A stretch of DNA of 32,751 nucleotides from Flavobacteriales bacterium. Its GTDB lineage: Bacteria; Bacteroidota; Bacteroidia; Flavobacteriales_C; GCA-002722245. How positions within the stretch are numbered: position 1 is the stretch's first letter; the number at the start of each line of letters is the position of its first letter. A program made the position numbers and the translations under genes. The notes beneath the pieces were generated by a model. That model saw nothing but the letters and a program-made list of their open reading frames with translations. It was not told where the DNA came from and made no database searches. Positions 2,409 through 22,296 of the stretch are shown piece after piece. The stretch is from the NCBI GenBank assembly GCA_023251075.1, contig JAHEZM010000009.1:89394-122144 (forward strand). Direction: 5' to 3'.

Positions 2409-3109
2409 TCGATGTAATTGGTAAAATATTATTGGTTGAAGACGATGAAAATCTAGGTTTTGTAATTAAAGATAACCTAGAAATGGAAGGCTATTTGGTG
2501 GATTTGGCAACGGATGGGAATGAAGGATTTCGTTTGTTTCACGGCGCTACTTACGATATTTGTTTATTAGATGTAATGTTGCCCGAAAAAGACGGATTTA
2601 CTTTGGCTCAGGATATCAGAAAAGTAAATCAAAATGTACCCATTATTTTTCTTACCGCGAGATCTTTAGATGAAGATAAAATTAAAGGATTCCAATCGGG
2701 AGCCGATGATTATATTACCAAACCATTCAGCGTTGGAGAATTGAGTTATAGAATTAAAGCAGTGCTCAAAAGAACTAAAAGCATTGAGCCAACTGATATT
2801 CAAAAAGACATATTTCATTTAGGTAAATTTATTTTTGATTTCCCCAATCAAACATTAACATTAGAAAATGATCAGCAATCACTTACCAAAAAAGAAGCTG
2901 ATATTTTAAAATTATTATGTTTAAATAAAAATCAGTTGGTGTCGAGAGATATGGCTTTAAAAGTGATTTGGGGCGATTCTGATTATTTCAAAGGCAGAAG
3001 CATGGATGTTTTTATTACTAAACTGAGAAAGTATTTAAAAGAGGATCCTTCGGTGGAAATTATCAATATTCATGGAACGGGTTTTAAACTTTCGGTTCCC
3101 AATCACTAA
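2405..3109 (+). CDS. OmpR/PhoB-family response regulator
   Basis: DNA-binding response regulator of 234 residues, partner of the kinase whose stop it overlaps by 4 bases. The receiver domain (about 7-120) has the acidic pocket D13/D14, phospho-acceptor D56 (CLLDVMLPEKDG), T84 (FLTARS) and K106 (YITKPF). The C-terminal winged helix (about 140-232) has the usual LTKKEADILKLL, recognition-helix region RSMDVFITKLRKYL and the closing HGTGFKL hairpin. Full length with all key residues present. Its TAA stop (3107-3109) interlocks with the TAG stop of the convergent porP/sprF-like gene, leaving no room for a separate terminator. Confidence 0.94.
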   Translation: MIDVIGKILLVEDDENLGFVIKDNLEMEGYLVDLATDGNEGFRLFHGATYDICLLDVMLPEKDGFTLAQDIRKVNQNVPIIFLTARSLDEDKIKGFQSGADDYITKPFSVGELSYRIKAVLKRTKSIEPTDIQKDIFHLGKFIFDFPNQTLTLENDQQSLTKKEADILKLLCLNKNQLVSRDMALKVIWGDSDYFKGRSMDVFITKLRKYLKEDPSVEIINIHGTGFKLSVPNH

Positions 3110-4305
3110 AAGTTGCTTTTCAACCTCTCCATTTCCATGTAATTACTTTTGATAGATTCAATGGCCGATTGGTAATCATTTCGTTTAGAGAATTGATCAT
3201 CGGACGGTGTTAAACCTGCGCTTTCAGCCTCTGCACGCAATGCTCTTACTTTATTTCTAAGTGTTTTGTCGCGTAATTGCAGAACTACCATTTTTTCTTC
3301 TTTAGATTTTTTCTCGAAAGCTTCCCTGTATTGTACATTTTTTTCTGAATCGCTTTGAGCCAATTGAATTTTTTCTTGTAGAGAAGAGCCTGTCATTGGC
3401 ATTTCCGATCTTATGTTATTGAATTTTGCAGCCACCATAATTTCATGTGTTCCATAGCTGTATTTACTAATACTTGTAATGGGTTGATCATAAGCGTAGC
3501 CAAACAATAACTTATCGTTTTTAGTTTTATAGCCAATCAATCCAGAAACAGCATCTTGAGTTCTGAACATAACTCCGGCCCAAATATAATCCTGATAAAT
3601 AATTTTTGCTCCAAAATCCAATTGAGGAAGCACAGGAGGACCCCATTTCAAAAGCACCGATGGTTCAATTTCAAAATCGCTAGCAACCCTGAATTTATTT
3701 CCAGCGGTGATGTAATAATGACCAGTTAATCTGCTTAGAGATTGAGTAGAAGTTTCGAAAAAATTTAATCTGTTTTGAATGAATTGAGGAACAGAAACCC
3801 CCACGTAAAATTTATCGGAATACCATTGAGCACCAAAACCAAAGTCAGGTACAATAGCTGATTGAACAGAATTCATTAAAGCATTGTCTCCCGCATCTTT
3901 TAAAGTTATTTGTGTTCCATCTACTTTAAACTGAAGAATACCACCAGAAATACCTAAGGAGACTCTTGAGTTTTCACTCACTTTAAAATTATAGGCATAA
4001 GTAACATACAGTCCTGTTCTGCTAGTTGGTCCCGTTACATCAGAAAAGATAGAACCCCCGAAACCGATATTTTTTGTTTTATGTGGACCGTTAACACTTA
4101 ATATATGAGTTCTTGGCGCATCGGTTACACCAATCCACTGATAACGGTTATTGGAAGCTGCCATAAAATAATCTTGCGTACCAGCAACAGCAGGATTGAT
4201 AATAAATTTATTTAGCATGTATTGAGAATACAAAGGAAGCTGTTGCGCTTTCAATTGAATAAAAAGAAGCGCCAGCACAATCGATATTTTAATTCTTGCT
4301 TTCAT
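3106..4305 (-). CDS. PorP/SprF family T9SS-associated outer-membrane protein
   Basis: The family consists of outer-membrane beta-barrel proteins tied to type IX secretion; in Flavobacterium johnsoniae SprF is needed for export of the adhesin SprB. Signal peptide of about 20 residues (MKARIKISIVLALLFIQLKA), then the family N-terminus QQLPLYSQYMLNKFIINPAVAG and a series of amphipathic strands to about residue 290. The gene starts 2 bases after the stop of the giant adhesin, giving a sprB-sprF-like order and a likely shared transcript. Unusual: about 108 further residues (about 292-399) that are charged, helical and Lys/Glu/Arg-rich, beyond the usual roughly 300-residue family length. This looks like a coiled-coil or periplasmic tail. 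The family assignment is firm; that it serves this adhesin is inferred from linkage. Confidence 0.9.
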   Translation of the reverse strand: MKARIKISIVLALLFIQLKAQQLPLYSQYMLNKFIINPAVAGTQDYFMAASNNRYQWIGVTDAPRTHILSVNGPHKTKNIGFGGSIFSDVTGPTSRTGLYVTYAYNFKVSENSRVSLGISGGILQFKVDGTQITLKDAGDNALMNSVQSAIVPDFGFGAQWYSDKFYVGVSVPQFIQNRLNFFETSTQSLSRLTGHYYITAGNKFRVASDFEIEPSVLLKWGPPVLPQLDFGAKIIYQDYIWAGVMFRTQDAVSGLIGYKTKNDKLLFGYAYDQPITSISKYSYGTHEIMVAAKFNNIRSEMPMTGSSLQEKIQLAQSDSEKNVQYREAFEKKSKEEKMVVLQLRDKTLRNKVRALRAEAESAGLTPSDDQFSKRNDYQSAIESIKSNYMEMERLKSNF

Positions 4306-4307
4306 TT

Positions 4308-7300
4308 TTATCTCATTAATGTTATTGGTCCGGTGTATTTGTTTAACCCTGGTCCAAGATCAATTACATAATAATACGTTCCAACTGGTAAAGGTTTACT
4401 ATCAAAGTTTCCATCCCATTGAGTAACATATCCTGGAGAACGGAAAACCAATTGACCCCATCTGTTGTATATTTCTACGTTACATTGTGGAAATTCTTCA
4501 ATTAAATCAATTACCCATTTCTCATTTCGTCCATCGCCATTTGGAGTAATACCATTTGGAAAGGTTATTTCCTTAGCAGTTTTAATCAAAATGGATGTAG
4601 TATCTGAACAACCCGCAGAGTTGGTAACTGTTAAGATATACGTTGTAGAAAGCGGTGGAGTTGCAACAGGATTTTGTAAGGTTGGATCATCCAAACTGGT
4701 TGGAGGAGTCCAGTCATAAGTTCCACCTATTCCAGCGCCCGTTCCGTGTAATGTGGTTGAATTGCCCTGTAGTACAAACGTTTTATCAGCACTCACTATC
4801 GCAGTAGGTAAAGGATTTACAGTGATAAAAATACTTGCGCTATCTGTACAATTTGCGCTGGTTACATACAAGGTGTATTTGCTATCAGAAACTGGAGAAA
4901 TAGTAATGTTTGAATCGGTGTCTCCTGTGCTCCATAAATAATTCAATCCACCATGTCCGTGTAAAGCTATGCTTTGCCCGAAACAAATAGTACTATCATT
5001 TCCTGCATCGGCATCAATGAAGGTAAGTGTTGCCACGTCAGCAGTATCTAATAAAGTACAATTATTGGCATCGGTAATAGTTAAAATATACTGACCAGGA
5101 TATAAATTAGAATTATCAAGATTTGCCGAGCTGTAAGAATTAGGTCCACTCCAGCTAAATATTAAAGCACCAGTACCTCCTGCAGCTGTTTCATCAATAG
5201 TACCTTCGTTCGTGTTGGTACATTGTGCCGGAGTAGTAGTATTGGATGCAGTAATTGCTGTAGGTTCACTTAAGGTAACGCTATTTGATTTCACGCAGCC
5301 ATTGGTATCGGTTACGATGATAGTATATTTCCCAGCACATAAATTAGAGGCGATATCGGTGGTTTGATTGTTCGAATCATCCCATAAATAAGTGAATGGA
5401 GGTGTACCACCTTGAGGGCTAACAGTAGCTGAACCATTACAAACCCCGTTACATAATAAATCGGTGCTGTCACTGATCGTTGGTATCAAAAGAGGTGGAT
5501 TATTTAATTGTTTAGCAGCATTTACTACACAACCGGTTTGATCGGTCATGGTAACGAAGTAATTACCTTGACATAATCCCAATACTTTATTGGTGGTAGC
5601 ATTATTTGCATTGCCTGGTCCACCCCAGGTAACGCTATAAGGTTTAACACCGCCGGTACCTACAGCAGTTACTTCACCATTACAATCTCCAAAGCATTTT
5701 GGTTTTTTTGAATTGATAGTTACCGCCAATGCGTTCAACGTATTGATAGTAACAGGCATTGAAGAAATACATCCTTTACTATCGGTTACTTGTGCGTTGT
5801 AAGGACCAGCACATAAAGCTGTTGCCAAGTCGGTAGTTTGAGCTCCCGCATCATCCCATAAGTAAGTATATCCGCCATTACCACCAGAGGCAACAGCTCT
5901 GGCCTGACCGTTACAAATGTTAGCACATAAGATATGGATAGTGTCGGTAATTGTAACTTGTAAGGCATTTGGTTGACCAATTGGTACAGCCAATGATGCA
6001 GGACAGCCATTGGCATCGGTTACGGTTACAGTATCATTTCCAGCACACAGAGTACTCACGGTATCACCCGTTTGTCCACCGTTCCAATTGTAAGTCAATA
6101 AACCTGTACCTCCACTTGCAATTACTCTTGCCTGAGCATTACATTCACCAAAACATTTTGCATTGGTTTTAGTTAATAGTGCCACTATTATTGGAGTAGG
6201 TTCAGTTAAACTCACAGAGGCCGTATCTTTACATCCGTTTACATCTACAATTTTAACATGATAGGTTTGCGGACAAAGATTTGATGCAGTGGTGTCGGTT
6301 TCTAATCCTGGAGTATCGTACCAACTGTAGGTAAAAGGACCTGTGCCTCCTGTTGGTTCAACGGTTGCTACACCATCACATGATCCATTACAGCTAATGT
6401 TCGAACTATCGGAAATAACTCCTATTAAAGGTGCAGGTTGAGTGATAACAACATCTAAGATAGAGACACAACCCGATCCGTCGCGAATGGTATCTGTGTA
6501 GGTTCCCTGACATAATGAACTTATAGCAGAGATTGTGCTGCCGGTTGTCCATGAATGTGTAATAGGAGCTTGTCCGCCTATTGGGATAATTTGAGCATTA
6601 CCATTACACAATCCAAAACAGGTAATATTGTTTTGTACCAAGTTGGTATCCATTCCTTTATTCAGGATTTCAATAGAATCGGTTATATTACAGCCATTAG
6701 CATCTGTTATTGCATAAGTAAAGAATTGATCACACAAACCAGTTGCTGTGCTATCGGTTTGATTTCCTGCATTGGGCCATAGGTAGCTATATGGCGTTGT
6801 GCCCCCACTAACACTTACTGTTGCTGTACCCACACAGTTTCCTGCACAGAATATATGTGTTGTATCACTAATTGTAGCTGCTAAAGCAGTAGGTTCGGTG
6901 ATGATAATTTGAACAGAATCTATACATCCGTTAGCATCAACCACTGTTGCGGTGTAAGTTCCCGGACAAAGATTTGCAACAATAGTATCAGCAGTTGCGG
7001 CAGGATCATTCCATGTGATGGTGTAAGGGCTAACACCTCCGCTTGCATTTACAGTAGCGGTACCATTGCAGGCATTAAAACAAGTAATGTCTTTTTCGTT
7101 GGTTACGGTGATGTCTAATGATGGCGGTGCAAATAAATTAACTTGAGCTGTGTCTCTGCATCCATTGCCATCGGTTACTTTAACTGGGTTTAACCCACCG
7201 CATAAATTAATGCCCGTTGTGTCGGTTTGATTTCCTGCGTTATACCAATCGTAAGAATAGGGTAATGTGCCACCATTAGCTCTTACTGTGGCCATACCAT

Positions 7301-10300
7301 CGCATACAGCTCCACACAATAGGTTGGTACTGTCAACTATAGCAATAGAGAAAGGAGTTGGTTCGGTAATAATTTGAGAAATAGAGTCCACACAACCATT
7401 GGCATCAGTGATGTTTACCTGGAAGGTATCAGGACATAATCCATTAATATTTTTTGTGTTGGCTAAATTGCTCCAGCTGTAGTTGTAAGGAGTTGTACCG
7501 CCTACACCCAAAGAGTTAATATTTCCGTTACATAAACCATTACATTGAACATCATTATAACTTTGAATAAAAGCATGAAGCTGTAAAGGTTCTGTGATGG
7601 ATTTGGTTCGTGAATTTATACATCCTACAGAGTCGGTAACAATTATAGTATAGCTTCCAGGACAAAGACTATCCGCTGTTGCAGTGTTTTGCAACAAAGG
7701 ATCATTCCATTGATAAGTATAGGTTAAACCAGTACCACCTGATGCAAGAAAAATGAGCTGACCATCACAAAATCCGGTGCAAGAAACATTTTGAATAGTA
7801 ACCTGAATATCGATTGAATCTGGTTCGTGAATGGTTATAGGCATAAAGTAAGAACATCCCGCAGAATCAATTACTGATCCTGTATAGTTTCCGGCACATA
7901 AATTTACAGCGATTGAATCGGTTTGAGAAGCAGGATCATTCCAAATATAAGAGTATGGTAGTTTCCCTCCGGAGGCACTAATAGTAGCGCTACCAATACA
8001 AATTTTATTACATACTAAATCTGTTTGACTACTAATAAAAGCACTGAACCCTGATGTATCGACAATGCTCACTAATGAACTGGAAATACATCCGTTAGAG
8101 TCGGTAACCGTTCCTGTGTAATAACCTGCACATAAGTTAACTGCCAATGAATCTGTTTGTGCTCCCGGGTCATTCCATGAGAAAGTATAAGGAGTTGTTC
8201 CTCCCGATACACTTAAGTTGGCAAATCCAACACAATCACAATGAACATTAGATGAATCGCTAATGAAAGAAGTTAATACAGCTGGTTCGGTAATAGTTAC
8301 AGAATCTGTATAAGAACATCCATTGAAATCGGTTACGGTAACTCTATAAATTCCTGGAGCAAGATTTATTAAACTATCGATTGTTGTTGCTGATGGATCA
8401 TCCCAAAGATAAGTATAAGGTAAAGTTCCTCCTGATGCATTAGCTTTTGCTGTACCATCGTTAGCGCCATTACAACTGATATTGGTATAAGTTGGAACGG
8501 TAATTAAAATGGCAGGTTGACTCACTATTACAGGGATTACATTACTACATCCAGCAACGTCTGTAATGGTATCATTATAAGTTCCCACGCAGATATTCAA
8601 AATAGAGTCGTTGGTAGAAATAATATCCCAAGAGTGTGTGTATGGAGCACCATTTCCACCACTCGGAACTATGCTGGCATTACCATTACAATCACCATTA
8701 CACAAAGGTTCTACTACTGATATGGTTCCGGATATTAATGGTGGTCCAAGTACTGTGGCATGCGTAATTCTGATACAACCCGTGCTATCTGTTACTTGTG
8801 CAATGTAGGTTCCGGCACAAAGATTAATAGCAATACTATCTGTTTGAACCAGCGGGTCATTCCAAAGATAAGTGTAAGGGGGATTACCAAACATTCCCAA
8901 TGCTTTTGCACTACCATCACATATTGAAAAACAACTTACATCGGTTGAATCAACAGTTTTTGCAATGAAAATGCTCGAGGTATCCAATATCGCAATAGAA
9001 ATACTATCCATACAGAAAGAAGAGTCGGTAACAACTACTTGATAGAGACCCACACAAAGATTGGATGCTTGTGGAGTGGTTTGTGCTCCTAAATCATTCC
9101 ATAAATAGGTGTAAGGACTTGTTCCTCCCGCTACGCCAACGGTAGCTGATCCGTTACATACGCATACAGTATATACAGTATCAATTATTGAAAGAGATAA
9201 TGCTGTCGGACTGAGAACAGATACTGATGAAGTATCGGCACATCCTAAACTATCATTTACAATAACCTGATAGACTCCCGCTGTTAAGCCTATTACGGTA
9301 TCGTTAGTGCTTGAACCAACATCATCCCATAGGAAGGTATATGAACCTGTTCCTCCTGAAGGGGAAGAATATACTTCACCATCGGTATCACCAAAACAGG
9401 TTACCGCTTTGGAAGTTGGATTAGCTTGCAAAATAACCGGATCGGTAATAGTAATCAATAAAGTATCTTTACAACCAACGGCATCAGTAATAGTATCTGC
9501 CACCACACCAGCACATAAGTTTATTACAGAAGAAAGGGTTCCTCCCACACTCCAGGAATGCGTATAAACGCCAGGTGTACCACCAAAAGGAAGAACTGAA
9601 GCTGTTCCTGAGCAATCCCCATTACAATTTGGATTGGTGATGGAAACAGTACCATCAACAGCTGTAGGGCTATTTATTAAAACTTGTGCCGTATCAATAC
9701 ATCCAATGGCATCTGTTATTTCTACATAAGAAAGGCCAGGGCATAAGTTAATGGCCGTAGAATCTGTTTGATTACCTGCGGTGTACCAGTTGTAAGTATA
9801 AGGGCCTGTCCCTCCACTAACAGAAGTATTTGCAGTTCCGTCGCAGGAGTTAAAACATAGAGTGGCCGTAGAATCTGTAATAATTGCTACTACAGGGTTA
9901 TTCGAAATATCGATAAAAACAGTCGCAGTATCTAAACAACCATTTGCATCTGTAACTTCTACGCCTCTGTTTCCAAAACAAAGTGCAGTTGCAATAGCTG
10001 TGGTTTGGTTCCCATCATTAAACCAATTATAGGTGTAAGGGCCCGTACCTCCTGCTGCCGATACTTCGGCAGAACCATTACATATATTGGTACAAGATGT
10101 AACAGAGGAGTCAATCATAGTTGCCACCACCACGACAGGAGATGTGATATGTACTTGTATGGTATCCTTACATCCTTTACTATCGGTCACTTGCACCTCA
10201 TTAATACCAACGCATAAATTAATTGCTAAAGCTGTGTTTTGATTACTAGCGGTATACCAATTGTAGGTGTAAGGCGCGGTTCCTCCCGATGCGTCAGCGG

Positions 10301-13300
10301 TTGCATCACCATCGCAAATTCCCGGACAAGTTGCCTGGTTGGAGTCTAACATGGCAGCAACTAAAACCGTTGGTTCGTTAATTGTTCCAGCAATAGAGTC
10401 TATACAACCATTGGCATCGGTAACTTCCACGTTGTATGTTCCAATGCATAGCGAAGAAATACTAGCCGTTGTTTGATTTCCTGCATCATACCAAACATAG
10501 CTATATGGTATAGTTCCCCCAGTTGAAACAGCAGCATTTAATATACCATTACAAGTACCATTACAGCTTGCATTGGTAGCAGAAATTGAAGCGTTTAAAA
10601 CAGCAGGTTGCGTGATGTTTACTGAAATTGTATCAGTGCAACCATGAGCATCGGTTGCTTCCACATGATATAGGCCAACTCCCAAGCCATTTACAAACGC
10701 AGTAGTTGGAGTGCCCGCTATATCATACCATGAATAAGTATAGGGAGCGGTTCCTCCCGAAGCATTTGCGGTGGCATCACCATCGCTTAGGCCATTACAA
10801 GATATATTATTGGAATCTGTTATTGATACGCTTAATACTTGGGGTTCTAGAATAGTAACAGATGCAAAATCAATACATCCATTGGCATCTGTTACGGTTA
10901 CGGAATGATTTCCTCCACATAAATTGATCGCGGTAGAATCGGTTTGATTTCCTGCAGTAGTCCAATCGTATGAATAAGGAGTAGCCCCGCCAACAGTGTG
11001 GACATTGGCCGAACCATCACAACTTCCAAAACAAGTGGTGCTATCGGAAGTATTTACCGTAGCATCAACAACAGTAGGGGCAACAAATGCAATAACAACG
11101 GTATCCTTACAACCTAAGAGGTCTGTCACTTCAACTGAATAATTCCTAACGCATAAATTATTTATGGAGGTAAATGTCACATTAAAAAAGTCGTACCACA
11201 AGTAACTGTAACCAGGAGTTCCTCCGGATGAAGTAACACCAACAGCACCGTCGCATACACCCAAGCAAGTTGCATTTTTAAACCCAGTAGTGTCAATGAT
11301 TAATTGTGTAGGGGAGGTGATAACAGTTGTTGCTGTATCTCTACAACCCGTTCCATCAGTCACTTCTACATTATAAGTACCATTACATAAATTTGAAACG
11401 CTTGCCGTACTTTGTCCGGCAGCATCGTACCAATTGTAAGTATATGGTAATGTTCCGTTGGATCCTGCTGCTGTTGCTTGGCCAAGACATTGTCCGAAAC
11501 AATTATTATTTGTTGAAGATGTAATTGCAATAGAAACGCCGGGGGGGACAATCAAATCATAATCAACAGTATCCAAACAACCATTGGCATCTTGAACCTC
11601 TACACTGTATGTTCCTGCACATAAACCAGTTACTCTTGTTGTTACTGGTCCTGCAGGTGTTAACCAGTTATAGGTGTAACCAGCGGTTCCGCCAGAACCC
11701 AAAGCTTCGAGTTCCCCAATGCAGGTTCCTAAACAGTTTAAAGGAACACTGTCAACTATATCAACAGTTAATGGTGCTGGAGATAAGATAGACGCTGTAA
11801 CAGTGTCTTTACATCCATTGGCATCAGTAACTTTAACATGATAATCCTGTGTACATAAGTTTGAAGCTACGGTATCTGTTTCTAATCCCGGAGTATCATA
11901 CCAGCTAAAAGTATATGGCCCAATACCTCCCATCGCTCTCACAGTTGCATCTCCATTACAGTAATTAGAACAAATGTTATTGGTTTGATTGACAATATTT
12001 GAAAATAATGTTGATGCAGGCTGTGTGATGGTTACAGTAGAAGTATCCTTACATCCATTGGCGTCTGTCACCTGAACATTAGATGCGCCAGCACAAATAC
12101 CAGTTGCTTTTACAGCGGTCATTCCAACCAAATTATACCAGAAATAAGTATAAGGCATTACACCTCCTCCAGCGGTAACAGTAGCATCTCCTGTACACAA
12201 TCCTCTACACATTACGTTAGTAGAATCAGTGATTGAAGAAGTAAGTGCTGCAGGTTCTGTAACAGTTGTTGTTGCGGTGTCTTTACATCCATTTCCATCA
12301 GTTATTTCAACGTTATAGGTGCCTGCGCAAACGTTGAATACCGGACTTGTCGTTGGAGCTCCAGGAGCATCATACCAAGAATAATTTAGAGGAGCAGTTC
12401 CTCCTGAACCCGAATATGTGATCCTCCCGATACATACATTATTACATAGTAAGTTTTGAGCAGTACTGGCACTTAACACTATTGCAGCAGGTTGTGTAAT
12501 GTCAATAGTTACAGTATCTAAACACCCATGTGTATCCGTTATTTCGCAATGATATGAGCCTGCGCATTTATTACTAATTGAATTGGTTGCCCCACCTCCT
12601 GCATCGTACCAACTATAGGTATATCCACTGGTTCCACCAGCCACAGAAATAGTTGCGGCACCGGTACATTTTCCATTACACAGAATATTGGTTTGACTAG
12701 AGATGCTTCCTGCCAATAATGCAGGTTCAATGATTGTATCGGCATGAGTTTCTGTACAGCCGGCATCATCAGTAATTGTTAAAGAATAAATTCCAGCACA
12801 TAAATTTATTGCTGATTCTGTTGTTTGTCCATCACTCCACAAATAGTGAAGTGTACCTAATCCACCAAAAGTTAATAGATTAATTTGCCCATCACAACTC
12901 TGAAAACAGGTATTATCTATGGTTCCTGCGGGGATTATGGTAATTGGAGGGTTTGAACTTATGTTGAAATTTTTCGGATAGTTGAGACCTGTACTTAAAT
13001 CCTTTACTACTACAGTATAGGCTTTAGAAACCAGATTATAAATTGAATCTGTTGGTTCCCCTGAATAGGGTCCAATTGGGAAATATGAATAGGTGAAAGG
13101 TCCTGCTGAACCGGCTACGTTTACTTTTGCTGTACCATCATTATTTCCCGGACAAGTTTCATCGGTTACCGTTACCGTTACCACTACAGCCATCACTTCC
13201 GCTCCGGCGTTTTTTTCGGTTTTAATTACAATAGGGTTGTTCGGTTGAAAACTGTAATTGACTTGTCCCTGAAAATCTTTTTTGTAATGGTTGCTGATGG

Positions 13301-13697
13301 AAGGGTTATTACCAATGATGTATTCAATTCTACCTTTAAAATCGTTGGTTATTTTTTCAGATAAGAAAATGCCACCAAAACTGGTTAAAGTGATATTTTC
13401 TGAGGAACTGATGCTCGTGTTTTTCGTAATGTTTTCCCAATTCATACCTCCAATGGAAATATTTCCGGAAATAATTACGGTTTGATTGTCGGTAGAGAAT
13501 GAATTTGCATCAAAAATGGCTTTTTCAAATTCATTAGGCGTTCCTGCTCCGCCATTGCCACCCGATTGGTAAGACCAATGTGAAGCATCACCCCAATTTC
13601 CACCATTACCCACCCAATATTTGTTAGCAGCAATAAGGCTTTCAGAAAAAAGGAGAGCGATGCTCAGTAGTATTAATATGTATCTATTTTGTTTCAA
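4308..13697 (-). CDS. Giant SprB-like repeat adhesin with gliding-motility (CHU_C) C-terminal domain
   Basis: Predicted T9SS-exported cell-surface adhesin of 3129 residues. TTG start at 13695-13697; an in-frame TAG lies four codons upstream and the signal peptide (about 1-23) starts right there. Residues about 25-165 form an N-terminal module opening YWVGNGGNWGDASHWS, of a type often found in CHU_C-tailed proteins. Residues 170-2892 are about 35 SprB-type repeats averaging 78 residues (core GGTxPYxYxW, then LCxG, then VTDxNGC). Two degenerate PKD/Ig-like domains follow (about 2893-3040). The last 87 residues (from E3043, FPNGITPNGDG, then IYNRWGQLVF and PVGTYYYVI) are the gliding-motility-associated C-terminal domain that directs T9SS export. 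It is very cysteine-rich, usually four per repeat. SprB-type proteins are adhesins moved on the surface during gliding; the ligand here is unknown. Confidence 0.95.
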   Translation of the reverse strand: MKQNRYILILLSIALLFSESLIAANKYWVGNGGNWGDASHWSYQSGGNGGAGTPNEFEKAIFDANSFSTDNQTVIISGNISIGGMNWENITKNTSISSSENITLTSFGGIFLSEKITNDFKGRIEYIIGNNPSISNHYKKDFQGQVNYSFQPNNPIVIKTEKNAGAEVMAVVVTVTVTDETCPGNNDGTAKVNVAGSAGPFTYSYFPIGPYSGEPTDSIYNLVSKAYTVVVKDLSTGLNYPKNFNISSNPPITIIPAGTIDNTCFQSCDGQINLLTFGGLGTLHYLWSDGQTTESAINLCAGIYSLTITDDAGCTETHADTIIEPALLAGSISSQTNILCNGKCTGAATISVAGGTSGYTYSWYDAGGGATNSISNKCAGSYHCEITDTHGCLDTVTIDITQPAAIVLSASTAQNLLCNNVCIGRITYSGSGGTAPLNYSWYDAPGAPTTSPVFNVCAGTYNVEITDGNGCKDTATTTVTEPAALTSSITDSTNVMCRGLCTGDATVTAGGGVMPYTYFWYNLVGMTAVKATGICAGASNVQVTDANGCKDTSTVTITQPASTLFSNIVNQTNNICSNYCNGDATVRAMGGIGPYTFSWYDTPGLETDTVASNLCTQDYHVKVTDANGCKDTVTASILSPAPLTVDIVDSVPLNCLGTCIGELEALGSGGTAGYTYNWLTPAGPVTTRVTGLCAGTYSVEVQDANGCLDTVDYDLIVPPGVSIAITSSTNNNCFGQCLGQATAAGSNGTLPYTYNWYDAAGQSTASVSNLCNGTYNVEVTDGTGCRDTATTVITSPTQLIIDTTGFKNATCLGVCDGAVGVTSSGGTPGYSYLWYDFFNVTFTSINNLCVRNYSVEVTDLLGCKDTVVIAFVAPTVVDATVNTSDSTTCFGSCDGSANVHTVGGATPYSYDWTTAGNQTDSTAINLCGGNHSVTVTDANGCIDFASVTILEPQVLSVSITDSNNISCNGLSDGDATANASGGTAPYTYSWYDIAGTPTTAFVNGLGVGLYHVEATDAHGCTDTISVNITQPAVLNASISATNASCNGTCNGILNAAVSTGGTIPYSYVWYDAGNQTTASISSLCIGTYNVEVTDANGCIDSIAGTINEPTVLVAAMLDSNQATCPGICDGDATADASGGTAPYTYNWYTASNQNTALAINLCVGINEVQVTDSKGCKDTIQVHITSPVVVVATMIDSSVTSCTNICNGSAEVSAAGGTGPYTYNWFNDGNQTTAIATALCFGNRGVEVTDANGCLDTATVFIDISNNPVVAIITDSTATLCFNSCDGTANTSVSGGTGPYTYNWYTAGNQTDSTAINLCPGLSYVEITDAIGCIDTAQVLINSPTAVDGTVSITNPNCNGDCSGTASVLPFGGTPGVYTHSWSVGGTLSSVINLCAGVVADTITDAVGCKDTLLITITDPVILQANPTSKAVTCFGDTDGEVYSSPSGGTGSYTFLWDDVGSSTNDTVIGLTAGVYQVIVNDSLGCADTSSVSVLSPTALSLSIIDTVYTVCVCNGSATVGVAGGTSPYTYLWNDLGAQTTPQASNLCVGLYQVVVTDSSFCMDSISIAILDTSSIFIAKTVDSTDVSCFSICDGSAKALGMFGNPPYTYLWNDPLVQTDSIAINLCAGTYIAQVTDSTGCIRITHATVLGPPLISGTISVVEPLCNGDCNGNASIVPSGGNGAPYTHSWDIISTNDSILNICVGTYNDTITDVAGCSNVIPVIVSQPAILITVPTYTNISCNGANDGTAKANASGGTLPYTYLWDDPSATTIDSLINLAPGIYRVTVTDFNGCSYTDSVTITEPAVLTSFISDSSNVHCDCVGFANLSVSGGTTPYTFSWNDPGAQTDSLAVNLCAGYYTGTVTDSNGCISSSLVSIVDTSGFSAFISSQTDLVCNKICIGSATISASGGKLPYSYIWNDPASQTDSIAVNLCAGNYTGSVIDSAGCSYFMPITIHEPDSIDIQVTIQNVSCTGFCDGQLIFLASGGTGLTYTYQWNDPLLQNTATADSLCPGSYTIIVTDSVGCINSRTKSITEPLQLHAFIQSYNDVQCNGLCNGNINSLGVGGTTPYNYSWSNLANTKNINGLCPDTFQVNITDANGCVDSISQIITEPTPFSIAIVDSTNLLCGAVCDGMATVRANGGTLPYSYDWYNAGNQTDTTGINLCGGLNPVKVTDGNGCRDTAQVNLFAPPSLDITVTNEKDITCFNACNGTATVNASGGVSPYTITWNDPAATADTIVANLCPGTYTATVVDANGCIDSVQIIITEPTALAATISDTTHIFCAGNCVGTATVSVSGGTTPYSYLWPNAGNQTDSTATGLCDQFFTYAITDANGCNITDSIEILNKGMDTNLVQNNITCFGLCNGNAQIIPIGGQAPITHSWTTGSTISAISSLCQGTYTDTIRDGSGCVSILDVVITQPAPLIGVISDSSNISCNGSCDGVATVEPTGGTGPFTYSWYDTPGLETDTTASNLCPQTYHVKIVDVNGCKDTASVSLTEPTPIIVALLTKTNAKCFGECNAQARVIASGGTGLLTYNWNGGQTGDTVSTLCAGNDTVTVTDANGCPASLAVPIGQPNALQVTITDTIHILCANICNGQARAVASGGNGGYTYLWDDAGAQTTDLATALCAGPYNAQVTDSKGCISSMPVTINTLNALAVTINSKKPKCFGDCNGEVTAVGTGGVKPYSVTWGGPGNANNATTNKVLGLCQGNYFVTMTDQTGCVVNAAKQLNNPPLLIPTISDSTDLLCNGVCNGSATVSPQGGTPPFTYLWDDSNNQTTDIASNLCAGKYTIIVTDTNGCVKSNSVTLSEPTAITASNTTTPAQCTNTNEGTIDETAAGGTGALIFSWSGPNSYSSANLDNSNLYPGQYILTITDANNCTLLDTADVATLTFIDADAGNDSTICFGQSIALHGHGGLNYLWSTGDTDSNITISPVSDSKYTLYVTSANCTDSASIFITVNPLPTAIVSADKTFVLQGNSTTLHGTGAGIGGTYDWTPPTSLDDPTLQNPVATPPLSTTYILTVTNSAGCSDTTSILIKTAKEITFPNGITPNGDGRNEKWVIDLIEEFPQCNVEIYNRWGQLVFRSPGYVTQWDGNFDSKPLPVGTYYYVIDLGPGLNKYTGPITLMR
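7818..8738 (-). repeat. Adhesin repeat block B (units 20-23)
   Basis: Second four-unit block (residues 1654-1960). In order: a THSW/DTITD unit; a unit without Cys2 and Cys3 (CNGANDG, NLAPG); a CxC unit ending in DTSG (HCDCVG); and a unit with QTDSIAVNLCAG. Each unit resembles its counterpart in block A. Lengths are 307 and 308 residues. Confidence 0.7.
8739..9662 (-). repeat. Adhesin repeat block A (units 16-19)
   Basis: First of two adjacent four-unit blocks (residues 1346-1653). In order: a THSW/DTITD unit; a unit without Cys2 and Cys3 (CFGDTDG, GLTAG); a CxC unit ending in DTSS (VCVCNG); and a unit with QTDSIAINLCAG. The same four-part order recurs in the next block, so the two look like copies of one ancestral segment. 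Confidence 0.7.
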
Positions 13698-13764: not shown

Positions 13765-14121
13765 TTATTGATCGATCGTTTTATATCGTTTTCCTCGAAT
13801 TAGGTTACCGCAATCCTTGCATTCAAATGGAAACGCTAATTTGTCTTCGCTTTTTTGGTAATCGAAAGTGATTTCATCACCCGGCATTATATTTTTTACA
13901 GCCAATAGCTTATTAGATCTCACTTCGCAATTAGGGGTGCATGAATGATTAATGAATTTTGCGGGGGCATCCACATCAATGTGTTTATTAAGCCCAATTT
14001 GAATAGTTGTTCTGGTAGGAAATTGTAGTATCAGACCTTCAATTATTAGTACAGTTTCACCTTTTTCAAAATAGGAGGAACTGAAGAGTCCAAGCATGTT
14101 TGCCGTAGCTTTTACTTCCAT
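13765..14121 (-). CDS. Small SET-domain protein (putative protein-lysine methyltransferase)
   Basis: 118 residues, nearly all SET domain. SET enzymes transfer methyl from S-adenosylmethionine to lysines; bacterial substrates are mostly unknown. Visible: an N-terminal LGLFSSSYFEKGE, the knot motif FINHSCTPNCEV with N58-H59, and GDEITFDY with the catalytic-type Y88. The post-SET segment is FECKDCGNLIRGKR (C101, C104), where the usual third cysteine before RG is Ile, so a classic post-SET zinc site is doubtful. I chose the ATG at 14121; a TTG at 14163 would add 14 hydrophobic residues that are not part of the fold. It lies between a lipoprotein gene and the adhesin, all on the minus strand, with no clear functional link. 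Confidence 0.85.
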   Translation of the reverse strand: MEVKATANMLGLFSSSYFEKGETVLIIEGLILQFPTRTTIQIGLNKHIDVDAPAKFINHSCTPNCEVRSNKLLAVKNIMPGDEITFDYQKSEDKLAFPFECKDCGNLIRGKRYKTIDQ

Positions 14122-14199
14122 CAGCAACAAATAAAAGAATATTACAAGCGATAATTCGCCCAAAACAAAATTCTAATTAACATTTGAAAGTGAAAATCC

Positions 14200-21482: not shown

Positions 21483-21707
21483 ATGAGCACTAAAGAAGCA
21501 ATAGCGAAAGGCGGACCGATTTCAGGTTTTGAGCAATGGAGAGTTGCTTATGAATCGGCTTTTCCTTCTTATATAGACCGACTCTTAGCCGAGCTAAAAA
21601 GCGATATGCCCGATATTGTGACTTTAGGTATTGAAGGTGGCGTGATAAAAAAAAATATCATAGAAATTGTAGAGAATGAAAAACTTAACCGTTCTCGCAG
21701 GGCCTAA
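21483..21707 (+). CDS. Small protein upstream of zeta-like toxin, putative antitoxin
   Basis: 74 residues from the ATG at 21483 (MSTKEAIAKGGPISGFEQW). An alternative in-frame TTG at 21444 would add 13 residues without family support. It is predicted mostly helical, with no recognised helix-turn-helix. It overlaps the downstream P-loop gene by 32 bases, the tight coupling seen in toxin-antitoxin pairs, and its size and position (first gene) suit an antitoxin. I do not recognise the family by sequence. The role is inferred only from its partner. Confidence 0.7.
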   Translation: MSTKEAIAKGGPISGFEQWRVAYESAFPSYIDRLLAELKSDMPDIVTLGIEGGVIKKNIIEIVENEKLNRSRRA

Positions 21708-22296
21708 TGGTGCAGGAAAATCTACTTGTACCAACTTTTTTCTCGAACAAAATATTATAAAGGTTAAACCGGTAAATCTCGATGAGTTGAAACAACTTAT
21801 CGACCCAGCTATTTTACCTCACGACGTTCTTCGTTACCAAAGAGAAGAAAATAAACAACTAGAGAAATTATTTAAAGAGTTATATCTGCAAAAGATAAAT
21901 GCTTCTGAAGATTTCGCTTATGAGTGCAATTTAAGAGAAGAGCAACTCAAACCTGTTCCTTATTTTGAAAAGGAAGGCTATTCTTTGAATCTTATTTTCT
22001 TGTGTTTAGATGATGTAAATCAATGCGAGGAAAGAGTTCATCAACGTGTTCATCAGGGCGGACATTCGGTAGATAAAACCTCTATTATAGAAAATTTTAA
22101 TGAAGGCTTACGTAATTTAGATGAGTCATTTCTCGATTGGCATTCTGTTTTAATTATCGATAATTCGAAAGAAATGACTGCTGCTATATTCATCAAAAAA
22201 GGAAAATTAGAATTTAAGTTTTCTCTACCAAAAAGTATCAATGAGAAAAATACGCCAAAATTGTTTGCCTTTCTTTCTAGGAAAAACGCATACTGA
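21676..22296 (+). CDS. Zeta-toxin-like P-loop kinase
   Basis: 206 residues. Zeta toxins phosphorylate UDP-N-acetylglucosamine and so poison cell-wall synthesis; this small chromosomal form is a relative whose substrate is unproven. Visible: Walker A GPNGAGKST (residues 9-17), an acidic NLDEL segment (35-39), FAYECNLRE (80-87), and the conserved RVHQRVHQGGHSVDK (from about 120) followed by NFNEGLRNLDESF, the Arg-rich lid typical of this group. Preceded by an overlapping small gene and flanked by 54-base direct repeats. Toxicity is inferred, and some family members may be non-toxic small-molecule kinases. Confidence 0.82.
   Translation: MKNLTVLAGPNGAGKSTCTNFFLEQNIIKVKPVNLDELKQLIDPAILPHDVLRYQREENKQLEKLFKELYLQKINASEDFAYECNLREEQLKPVPYFEKEGYSLNLIFLCLDDVNQCEERVHQRVHQGGHSVDKTSIIENFNEGLRNLDESFLDWHSVLIIDNSKEMTAAIFIKKGKLEFKFSLPKSINEKNTPKLFAFLSRKNAY

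Follow-up and report, generated by a model that had tools for sequence, protein, structure and literature searches.

Which cysteines of a giant SprB-repeat adhesin bond with each other, and do the bonds lie within its repeats or between them? This question is raised by a stretch of 32,751 nucleotides (hereafter, the window) from a Flavobacteriales bacterium (assembly GCA_023251075.1, contig JAHEZM010000009.1), in which a single open reading frame (ORF) encodes a predicted cell-surface adhesin with 35 tandem repeats, most of them carrying four cysteines, denoted Cys1 to Cys4 in chain order. A previous interpretation made from the DNA letters and their translations (the sequence-only reading) proposed that most repeats are closed by two disulfides of their own, Cys2-Cys3 and Cys1-Cys4. 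Our analysis retains the first of these pairs and reassigns the second. The architecture that we favor, with a probability of roughly 0.85, is an adhesin stalk that combines optional Cys2-Cys3 bonds within repeats with Cys1(n)-Cys4(n+1) bonds that link successive repeats.

The adhesin consists of a signal peptide (called by eye), a cysteine-free N-terminal region, 35 SprB repeats, two immunoglobulin (Ig)/PKD-like domains, and the C-terminal domain typical of type B cargo of the type IX secretion system (T9SS). The SprB profile PF13573 matches 25 stretches of the protein (4.8e-182; 589.7 bits against a curated cut-off of 28), and the sorting domain is recognized by PF13585 (CHU_C; 2.3e-24) and TIGR04131 (1.8e-17; 63.3 bits against a cut-off of 35). 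These sequence features place the adhesin in the SprB repeat family and among T9SS type B cargo proteins. The mean pairwise identity of the 35 repeats is 36%, and tandem repeat detection at the DNA level found none in the repeat region; on both counts, the repeats are old.

Re-splitting and alignment of the 35 units yielded Cys1 in 35, Cys2 and Cys3 in 30 each, and Cys4 in 34, with Cys4 missing from unit 1 only, as the sequence-only reading had it. The same five units (1, 11, 17, 21 and 35) lack both Cys2 and Cys3, and none contains just one of the two, so that the joint presence and absence of this pair (30 both, 5 neither, 0 single) was reproduced. The chance figure attached to this pattern, one in C(35,5) = 324,632, is correct as arithmetic. 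However, the kinship of units 17 and 21, already acknowledged as weakening that figure, is better accommodated by counting the two as one event, and C(34,4) = 46,376 is fairer because these units are 44% identical and lie within a four-unit block (units 16-19 and 20-23 are 43-48% identical). This apparent duplication (positions 7824-9668, units 16-23) encompasses both the paired loss in units 17 and 21 and a C-x1-C spacing in units 18 and 22, in place of the C-x3-C described earlier. Unit 3 contains one additional cysteine (aa 384), and three cysteines that the sequence-only reading omitted (aa 2905, 2950 and 3030), located in the two domains after unit 35, turn out to be relevant to the pairing.

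The repeats used for comparison came from SprB arrays of the window's own family, an even sample of the phylum, and the nearest loci found by search. A profile of the window units recovered 2638 distinct, well-covered repeats in 164 ORFs, which were scored by alignment column; position-tolerant scoring was applied to a set of 2654 repeats in which identical copies were kept. By column, 721 repeats have both Cys2 and Cys3, 1888 have neither, 29 have Cys2 only, and none has Cys3 only; 25 of the 29 Cys2-only repeats also lack Cys1, and most of these 25 resemble a different, PKD-like domain with two cysteines, the first of which aligns close to the Cys2 column. Under position-tolerant scoring, 722 repeats have both cysteines and 1920 have neither; 722 of the 734 repeats with either cysteine carry both. 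A lone Cys2 or Cys3 occurs in only 12 of the 2654 repeats, several of which have a displaced partner cysteine. Outside the window, too, the two cysteines co-occur far more often than by chance.

Such co-occurrence could, in principle, be produced without any bond, by duplication and recombination of repeats that share ancestry. Units 17 and 21 are probable copies, and the Cys2/Cys3 state tends to be common to neighboring repeats (odds ratio (OR) of about 10), both of which fit this explanation. However, in a tree built without the cysteine columns, Cys2 and Cys3 each undergo 335 parsimony changes and switch together, with 122 cherries differing in both cysteines compared to 9 differing in one. 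As reconstructed on this tree, the pair is gained or lost jointly many times and does not reflect one inherited event. Furthermore, linkage along the chain predicts the strongest association for Cys4(n)-Cys1(n+1), which are 26 residues apart, whereas the strongest one actually found is Cys1(n)-Cys4(n+1), at about 130 residues. We therefore consider shared ancestry a very improbable explanation.

Direct coupling analysis (DCA), run on 2377 adjacent repeat pairs, identified Cys2-Cys3 as the strongest coupling, at 35.5 sigma within a repeat and less than 1 sigma between repeats; a bond between Cys2 and Cys3 of different repeats was rejected on the latter value. The pair (columns 19-53) falls on the register of strands B and E that is traced by the DCA contacts 21-52, 24-48 and 25-48. 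Recoding cysteines as gaps does not make a clean DCA control, since each gap continues to flag a cysteine position. Combined with the near-perfect co-occurrence and the excess of cherries differing in both cysteines, the coupling and its register strongly support the Cys2-Cys3 bridge of the sequence-only reading, and a predicted bridge within the repeat is very likely.

Other optional cysteine pairs were detected in the same alignments, namely columns 24-48 on strands B and E (21/21 each, in 12 ORFs), and, on strands F and G, columns 58-72 (50 paired of 59 and 54, respectively, in 22 ORFs) and 56-74 (16 paired of 19 and 16, in 8 ORFs). The loci with additional optional pairs include L143, L141, L145, L174 and L209 (our locus numbers). 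These pairs also bear on the possibility that the four cysteines of a repeat form a metal site or are redox-active thiols rather than disulfides, given that a C-x3-C motif with two more cysteines superficially resembles a metal-binding motif. The strict pairing of these other cysteines on opposing strands is as expected of cross-strand disulfides, repeats with one pair only are common, and the Cys2/Cys3 pair is statistically independent of the Cys1/Cys4 pair (OR 1.0). A four-cysteine metal site was rejected on the ground of this independence, and the metal or redox explanation as a whole appears extremely improbable.

For Cys1 and Cys4, the association runs from one repeat to the next. Among adjacent repeats of the position-tolerant set, Cys1(n) and Cys4(n+1) covary with an OR of 619 (p = 3.8e-32), and the repeat offset of +1 is far above every other offset. 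Concordant absences of Cys1(n) and Cys4(n+1) number 18, in 9 ORFs, whereas 20,000 shuffles within ORFs gave 4 on average and never more than 12. In the DCA, Cys1(n)-Cys4(n+1) is the top inter-repeat coupling between different columns (9.4 sigma, the next one being 3.1), and the reverse direction reaches 1.6 sigma. The array ends were scored as well: first units lack Cys4 in 43 of 233 cases (internal units, 22 of 2382), and last units lack Cys1 in 23 of 208 (internal units, 35 of 2381). Last domains were scored in 34 ORFs with a sorting-domain motif: 33 contain Cys4, and 23 of these 33 contain no Cys1 candidate. The window adhesin begins its chain with a unit that has Cys1 without Cys4 (unit 1) and ends it with a domain that has Cys4 (aa 3030) without Cys1 (domain 37), so that 36 Cys1 match 36 Cys4; close relatives show the same end pattern.

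The sequence-only reading had assigned Cys1 and Cys4 of the same repeat to each other, which, with Cys2-Cys3, would make each repeat an independently locked domain, connected to the next by a flexible linker. This assignment has in its favor that both cysteines are kept in nearly every repeat and that, over all units, they are weakly associated within repeats (OR 4.2, p = 8e-4). In the adjacent-pair sets, however, the within-repeat OR is 0 and 1.6, which is not significant, while Cys1(n)-Cys4(n+1) reaches 619; the corresponding DCA couplings are 1.9 and 9.4 sigma. It would also leave Cys1 of unit 1 and Cys3030 unpaired, in the window adhesin and, by the same pattern, in its orthologues, and it would have to bridge an Ig-like domain from pole to pole, between the AB and FG loops. 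Cys1 and Cys4 are thus nearly independent within a repeat and tightly coupled across the boundary, which contradicts the intra-repeat pairing, an improbable alternative in our assessment. The inter-repeat Cys1(n)-Cys4(n+1) chain, in contrast, seems from these alignments to be a general property of SprB repeats.

Under the inter-repeat model, 72 of the 134 cysteines of the adhesin are in inter-repeat pairs and 60 in Cys2-Cys3 pairs, with Cys384 and Cys3072 left over. The predicted disulfides are therefore likely to be 30 within repeats and 36 between repeats, 66 in total. The previous estimate of about 64 comes close to this total, but not in its premise that all are intra-repeat: 36 of these bonds would join neighboring repeats, and the mechanics of the stalk would therefore differ from those of the all-intra-repeat model.

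An AlphaFold2 (AF2) model of units 13-15, obtained with eight window triplets as input, has a mean predicted local distance difference test score (pLDDT) of 90.6 and a predicted template modeling score (pTM) of 0.65. Its strands, with letters assigned in this analysis, are A (4-11), B (21-28), C (35-38), E (48-52), F (55-62) and G (68-75); the A-B loop holds Cys1 (15) and Cys2 (19), the E-F turn Cys3 (53), and the F-G turn Cys4 (67). Tandem Ig and fibronectin type III (FnIII) chains match the model from end to end. Domains of these folds carry their AB and EF loops at the C-terminal pole, opposite the FG loop, which is at the N-terminal pole; Cys1, Cys2 and Cys3 of a repeat would therefore point towards Cys4 of the repeat that follows. 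For a unit without the Cys2/Cys3 pair, a single-sequence prediction (units 10-12) failed, with a pLDDT of 37. Two profile searches of PDB sequences yielded weak unrelated hits and short matches to phage Ig-like sequences, and nothing else.

Several observations weigh against the proposed bonding pattern. Six of the 18 concordant absences come from one protein (L103). There are 21 discordant adjacent pairs, some in masked sequence and others clustered in L162, L194 and L084. Raised values are also seen at offsets -2 (OR 21) and +4 (OR 59), which probably stem from periodic arrays such as L103. The pTM of 0.65 leaves the angle between domains uncertain. With regard to oxidation, a search of the organism's own genome produced no VKOR or DsbB match and a single DSBA hit without an evident signal peptide (L216); VKOR was found in only 2 of 40 relatives.

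If the covarying cysteines are oxidized, the stalk of this T9SS type B cell-surface adhesin would be built of SprB repeats with an Ig-like fold and held by two independent kinds of disulfide. Cys2, in the AB loop at the start of strand B, would bond with Cys3 in the E-F turn of its own repeat, closing the pole of each domain by an optional bond that is gained and lost as a unit. Cys1, in the AB loop, would bond with Cys4 in the F-G turn of the next repeat, in a chain running from unit 1 through domain 37. With the cysteines arranged along the chain as Cys1(n), Cys4(n), Cys1(n+1), Cys4(n+1), consecutive inter-repeat bonds would overlap and would therefore form two parallel covalent paths, through the odd and the even staples. 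Cys4 is separated from the next Cys1 by about 26 residues in the window, and each path would alternate between a bond and about 26 residues, spanning two repeats per about 26 residues. By our own estimate, the reach of 26 residues only slightly exceeds the length of two native Ig domains. Judging by this connectivity, and provided that the bonds form, the stalk would lengthen only slightly even with its repeats unfolded, being almost inextensible, and a single cut in one domain would not sever it. The PorP/SprF partner encoded by the adjacent gene would anchor the stalk.

Repeats with Cys2/Cys3 account for 242 of 422 in the window's own family, but only for 8 of 460 in the phylum sample (2 of 38 ORFs), in agreement with the expectation of the sequence-only reading that typical SprB repeats lack the extra pair. 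Among the nearest loci, which are a biased set, 442 of 1737 repeats from many lineages carry it. The commonest form in the family is the ordinary Cys1/Cys4 repeat, and the doubly cross-linked repeat, with its predicted bonds, is a lineage-enriched variant. No description of disulfides in SprB repeats was found in the literature searched, the coverage of which was partial. Most of the nearest relatives that bear a name are metagenome-assembled genomes of uncultured Flavobacteriales. The closest relative of the adhesin by search is on a contig labeled Chryseobacterium gleum (L137, CAMBXP010000019.1), a label that looks wrong, and SprB arrays were also found on contigs labeled as Nitrospinaceae and Rhodobacteraceae metagenome bins (L150 and L153), where mis-binning seems likely.

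The window adhesin shares with SprB of Flavobacterium johnsoniae (PF13573) the repeat family, as detected by hidden Markov model, the T9SS type B sorting domain, and an adjoining PorP/SprF gene, but differs from ordinary SprB repeats by the added Cys2-Cys3 pair in 30 of its 35 repeats. The neighboring PorP/SprF protein is the predicted cognate partner of the adhesin. In F. johnsoniae, SprF requires a C-terminal Cys-Xaa-Cys for its bond to GldK (PMC12635249); the window partner contains no cysteine and hence lacks the twin-cysteine tail that ties SprF to GldK, and none of the PorP/SprF paralogues found in the organism's own genome (L217-L228) has a C-terminal C-x-C. A GldK linkage of the F. johnsoniae type may therefore be absent from this organism, and, for the same reasons, we do not claim orthology of the window adhesin to the SprB gliding adhesin. 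Among other genes in the window, a SET-domain protein of 132 aa (13765-14163, reverse strand) is encoded directly upstream of the adhesin, and a 206-aa protein with a zeta toxin/AAA P-loop family match is encoded at 21676-22296 (forward strand).

The best solved structural match of the AF2 model is GhpA, the grappling-hook protein of Aureispira sp. CCB-QB1; this predator belongs to the Bacteroidota, and GhpA is a giant protein of its surface. GhpA chains (PDB 9flw, 9flu, 9flp and others) match over three tandem domains, with 9flw as the top one (Foldseek 1.1e-8; VIA Z 11.3, root-mean-square deviation 9.3, 218 residues), but share about 20% identity and are not found by SprB sequence profiles (E <= 10). 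Long single-chain stalks of tandem Ig-like, covalently cross-linked domains are also known from the giant adhesin of Mobiluncus mulieris and from Spy0128-type pilins, where the cross-links (ester, isopeptide, disulfide and thioester) are described as lying within domains (PMC10619420). In contrast to these, the window adhesin would have an additional bond between successive domains.

Table 1. Positions of the adhesin, its parts and the partner gene in the window
Feature	Position	Strand	Basis or remark
Giant SprB-repeat adhesin, 3129 aa, TTG start, 134 Cys	4308..13697	-	translated ORF
N-terminal region, aa 1-167, signal peptide and Cys-free domain	13197..13697	-	no Cys ahead of unit 1
Array of 35 SprB-type repeats, ~78 aa each	5028..13196	-	ORF translation split into units
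Unit 1, Cys1 only, first domain of the chain, lacks Cys4	12951..13196	-	unit alignment
Unit 11, Cys1 and Cys4 only	10608..10841	-	unit alignment
Unit 17, Cys1 and Cys4 only	9207..9440	-	unit alignment
Unit 21, Cys1 and Cys4 only, probable copy of unit 17	8283..8516	-	unit alignment, four-unit duplication
Unit 35, Cys1 and Cys4 only	5028..5264	-	unit alignment
Domain 36, PKD/Ig-like, aa ~2891-2962, Cys1 equivalent aa 2905, Cys4 equivalent aa 2950	4812..5027	-	boundaries approximate
Domain 37, last Ig-like, aa ~2963-3043, Cys4 equivalent aa 3030, lacks Cys1	4569..4811	-	boundaries approximate
CHU_C / T9SS type B sorting domain, aa 3045-3126	4320..4565	-	PF13585, TIGR04131
PorP/SprF-family outer-membrane partner, 399 aa, zero Cys	3106..4305	-	PF11751 3.6e-75, gene next to adhesin

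The gliding adhesins of Bacteroidota are load-bearing proteins of great length, about 200 nm in the case of SprB (PMC12635249), yet no account of what holds their repeats together was found in the literature searched. Bonds between all successive repeats would make the adhesin one unbroken disulfide cable, as opposed to a string of beads with flexible linkers, which gives direct predictions on stiffness, extensibility and protease resistance. A surface role would thereby be added for disulfides, in a phylum where they have recently been shown to couple the gliding machinery, and the covariation map indicates which cysteines to mutate and which pairing to expect. Somewhat less firmly, we lean towards the view that the SprB-repeat stalks of Bacteroidota in general are covalent cables of two plies, nick-resistant and inextensible beyond approximately their native length even with unfolded domains, in which Cys2-Cys3 and the rarer pairs 24-48, 58-72 and 56-74 serve as interchangeable reinforcement of the fold. 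If this is true, it would be a general mechanical principle for the SprB-repeat adhesins that bear the forces of gliding and adhesion.

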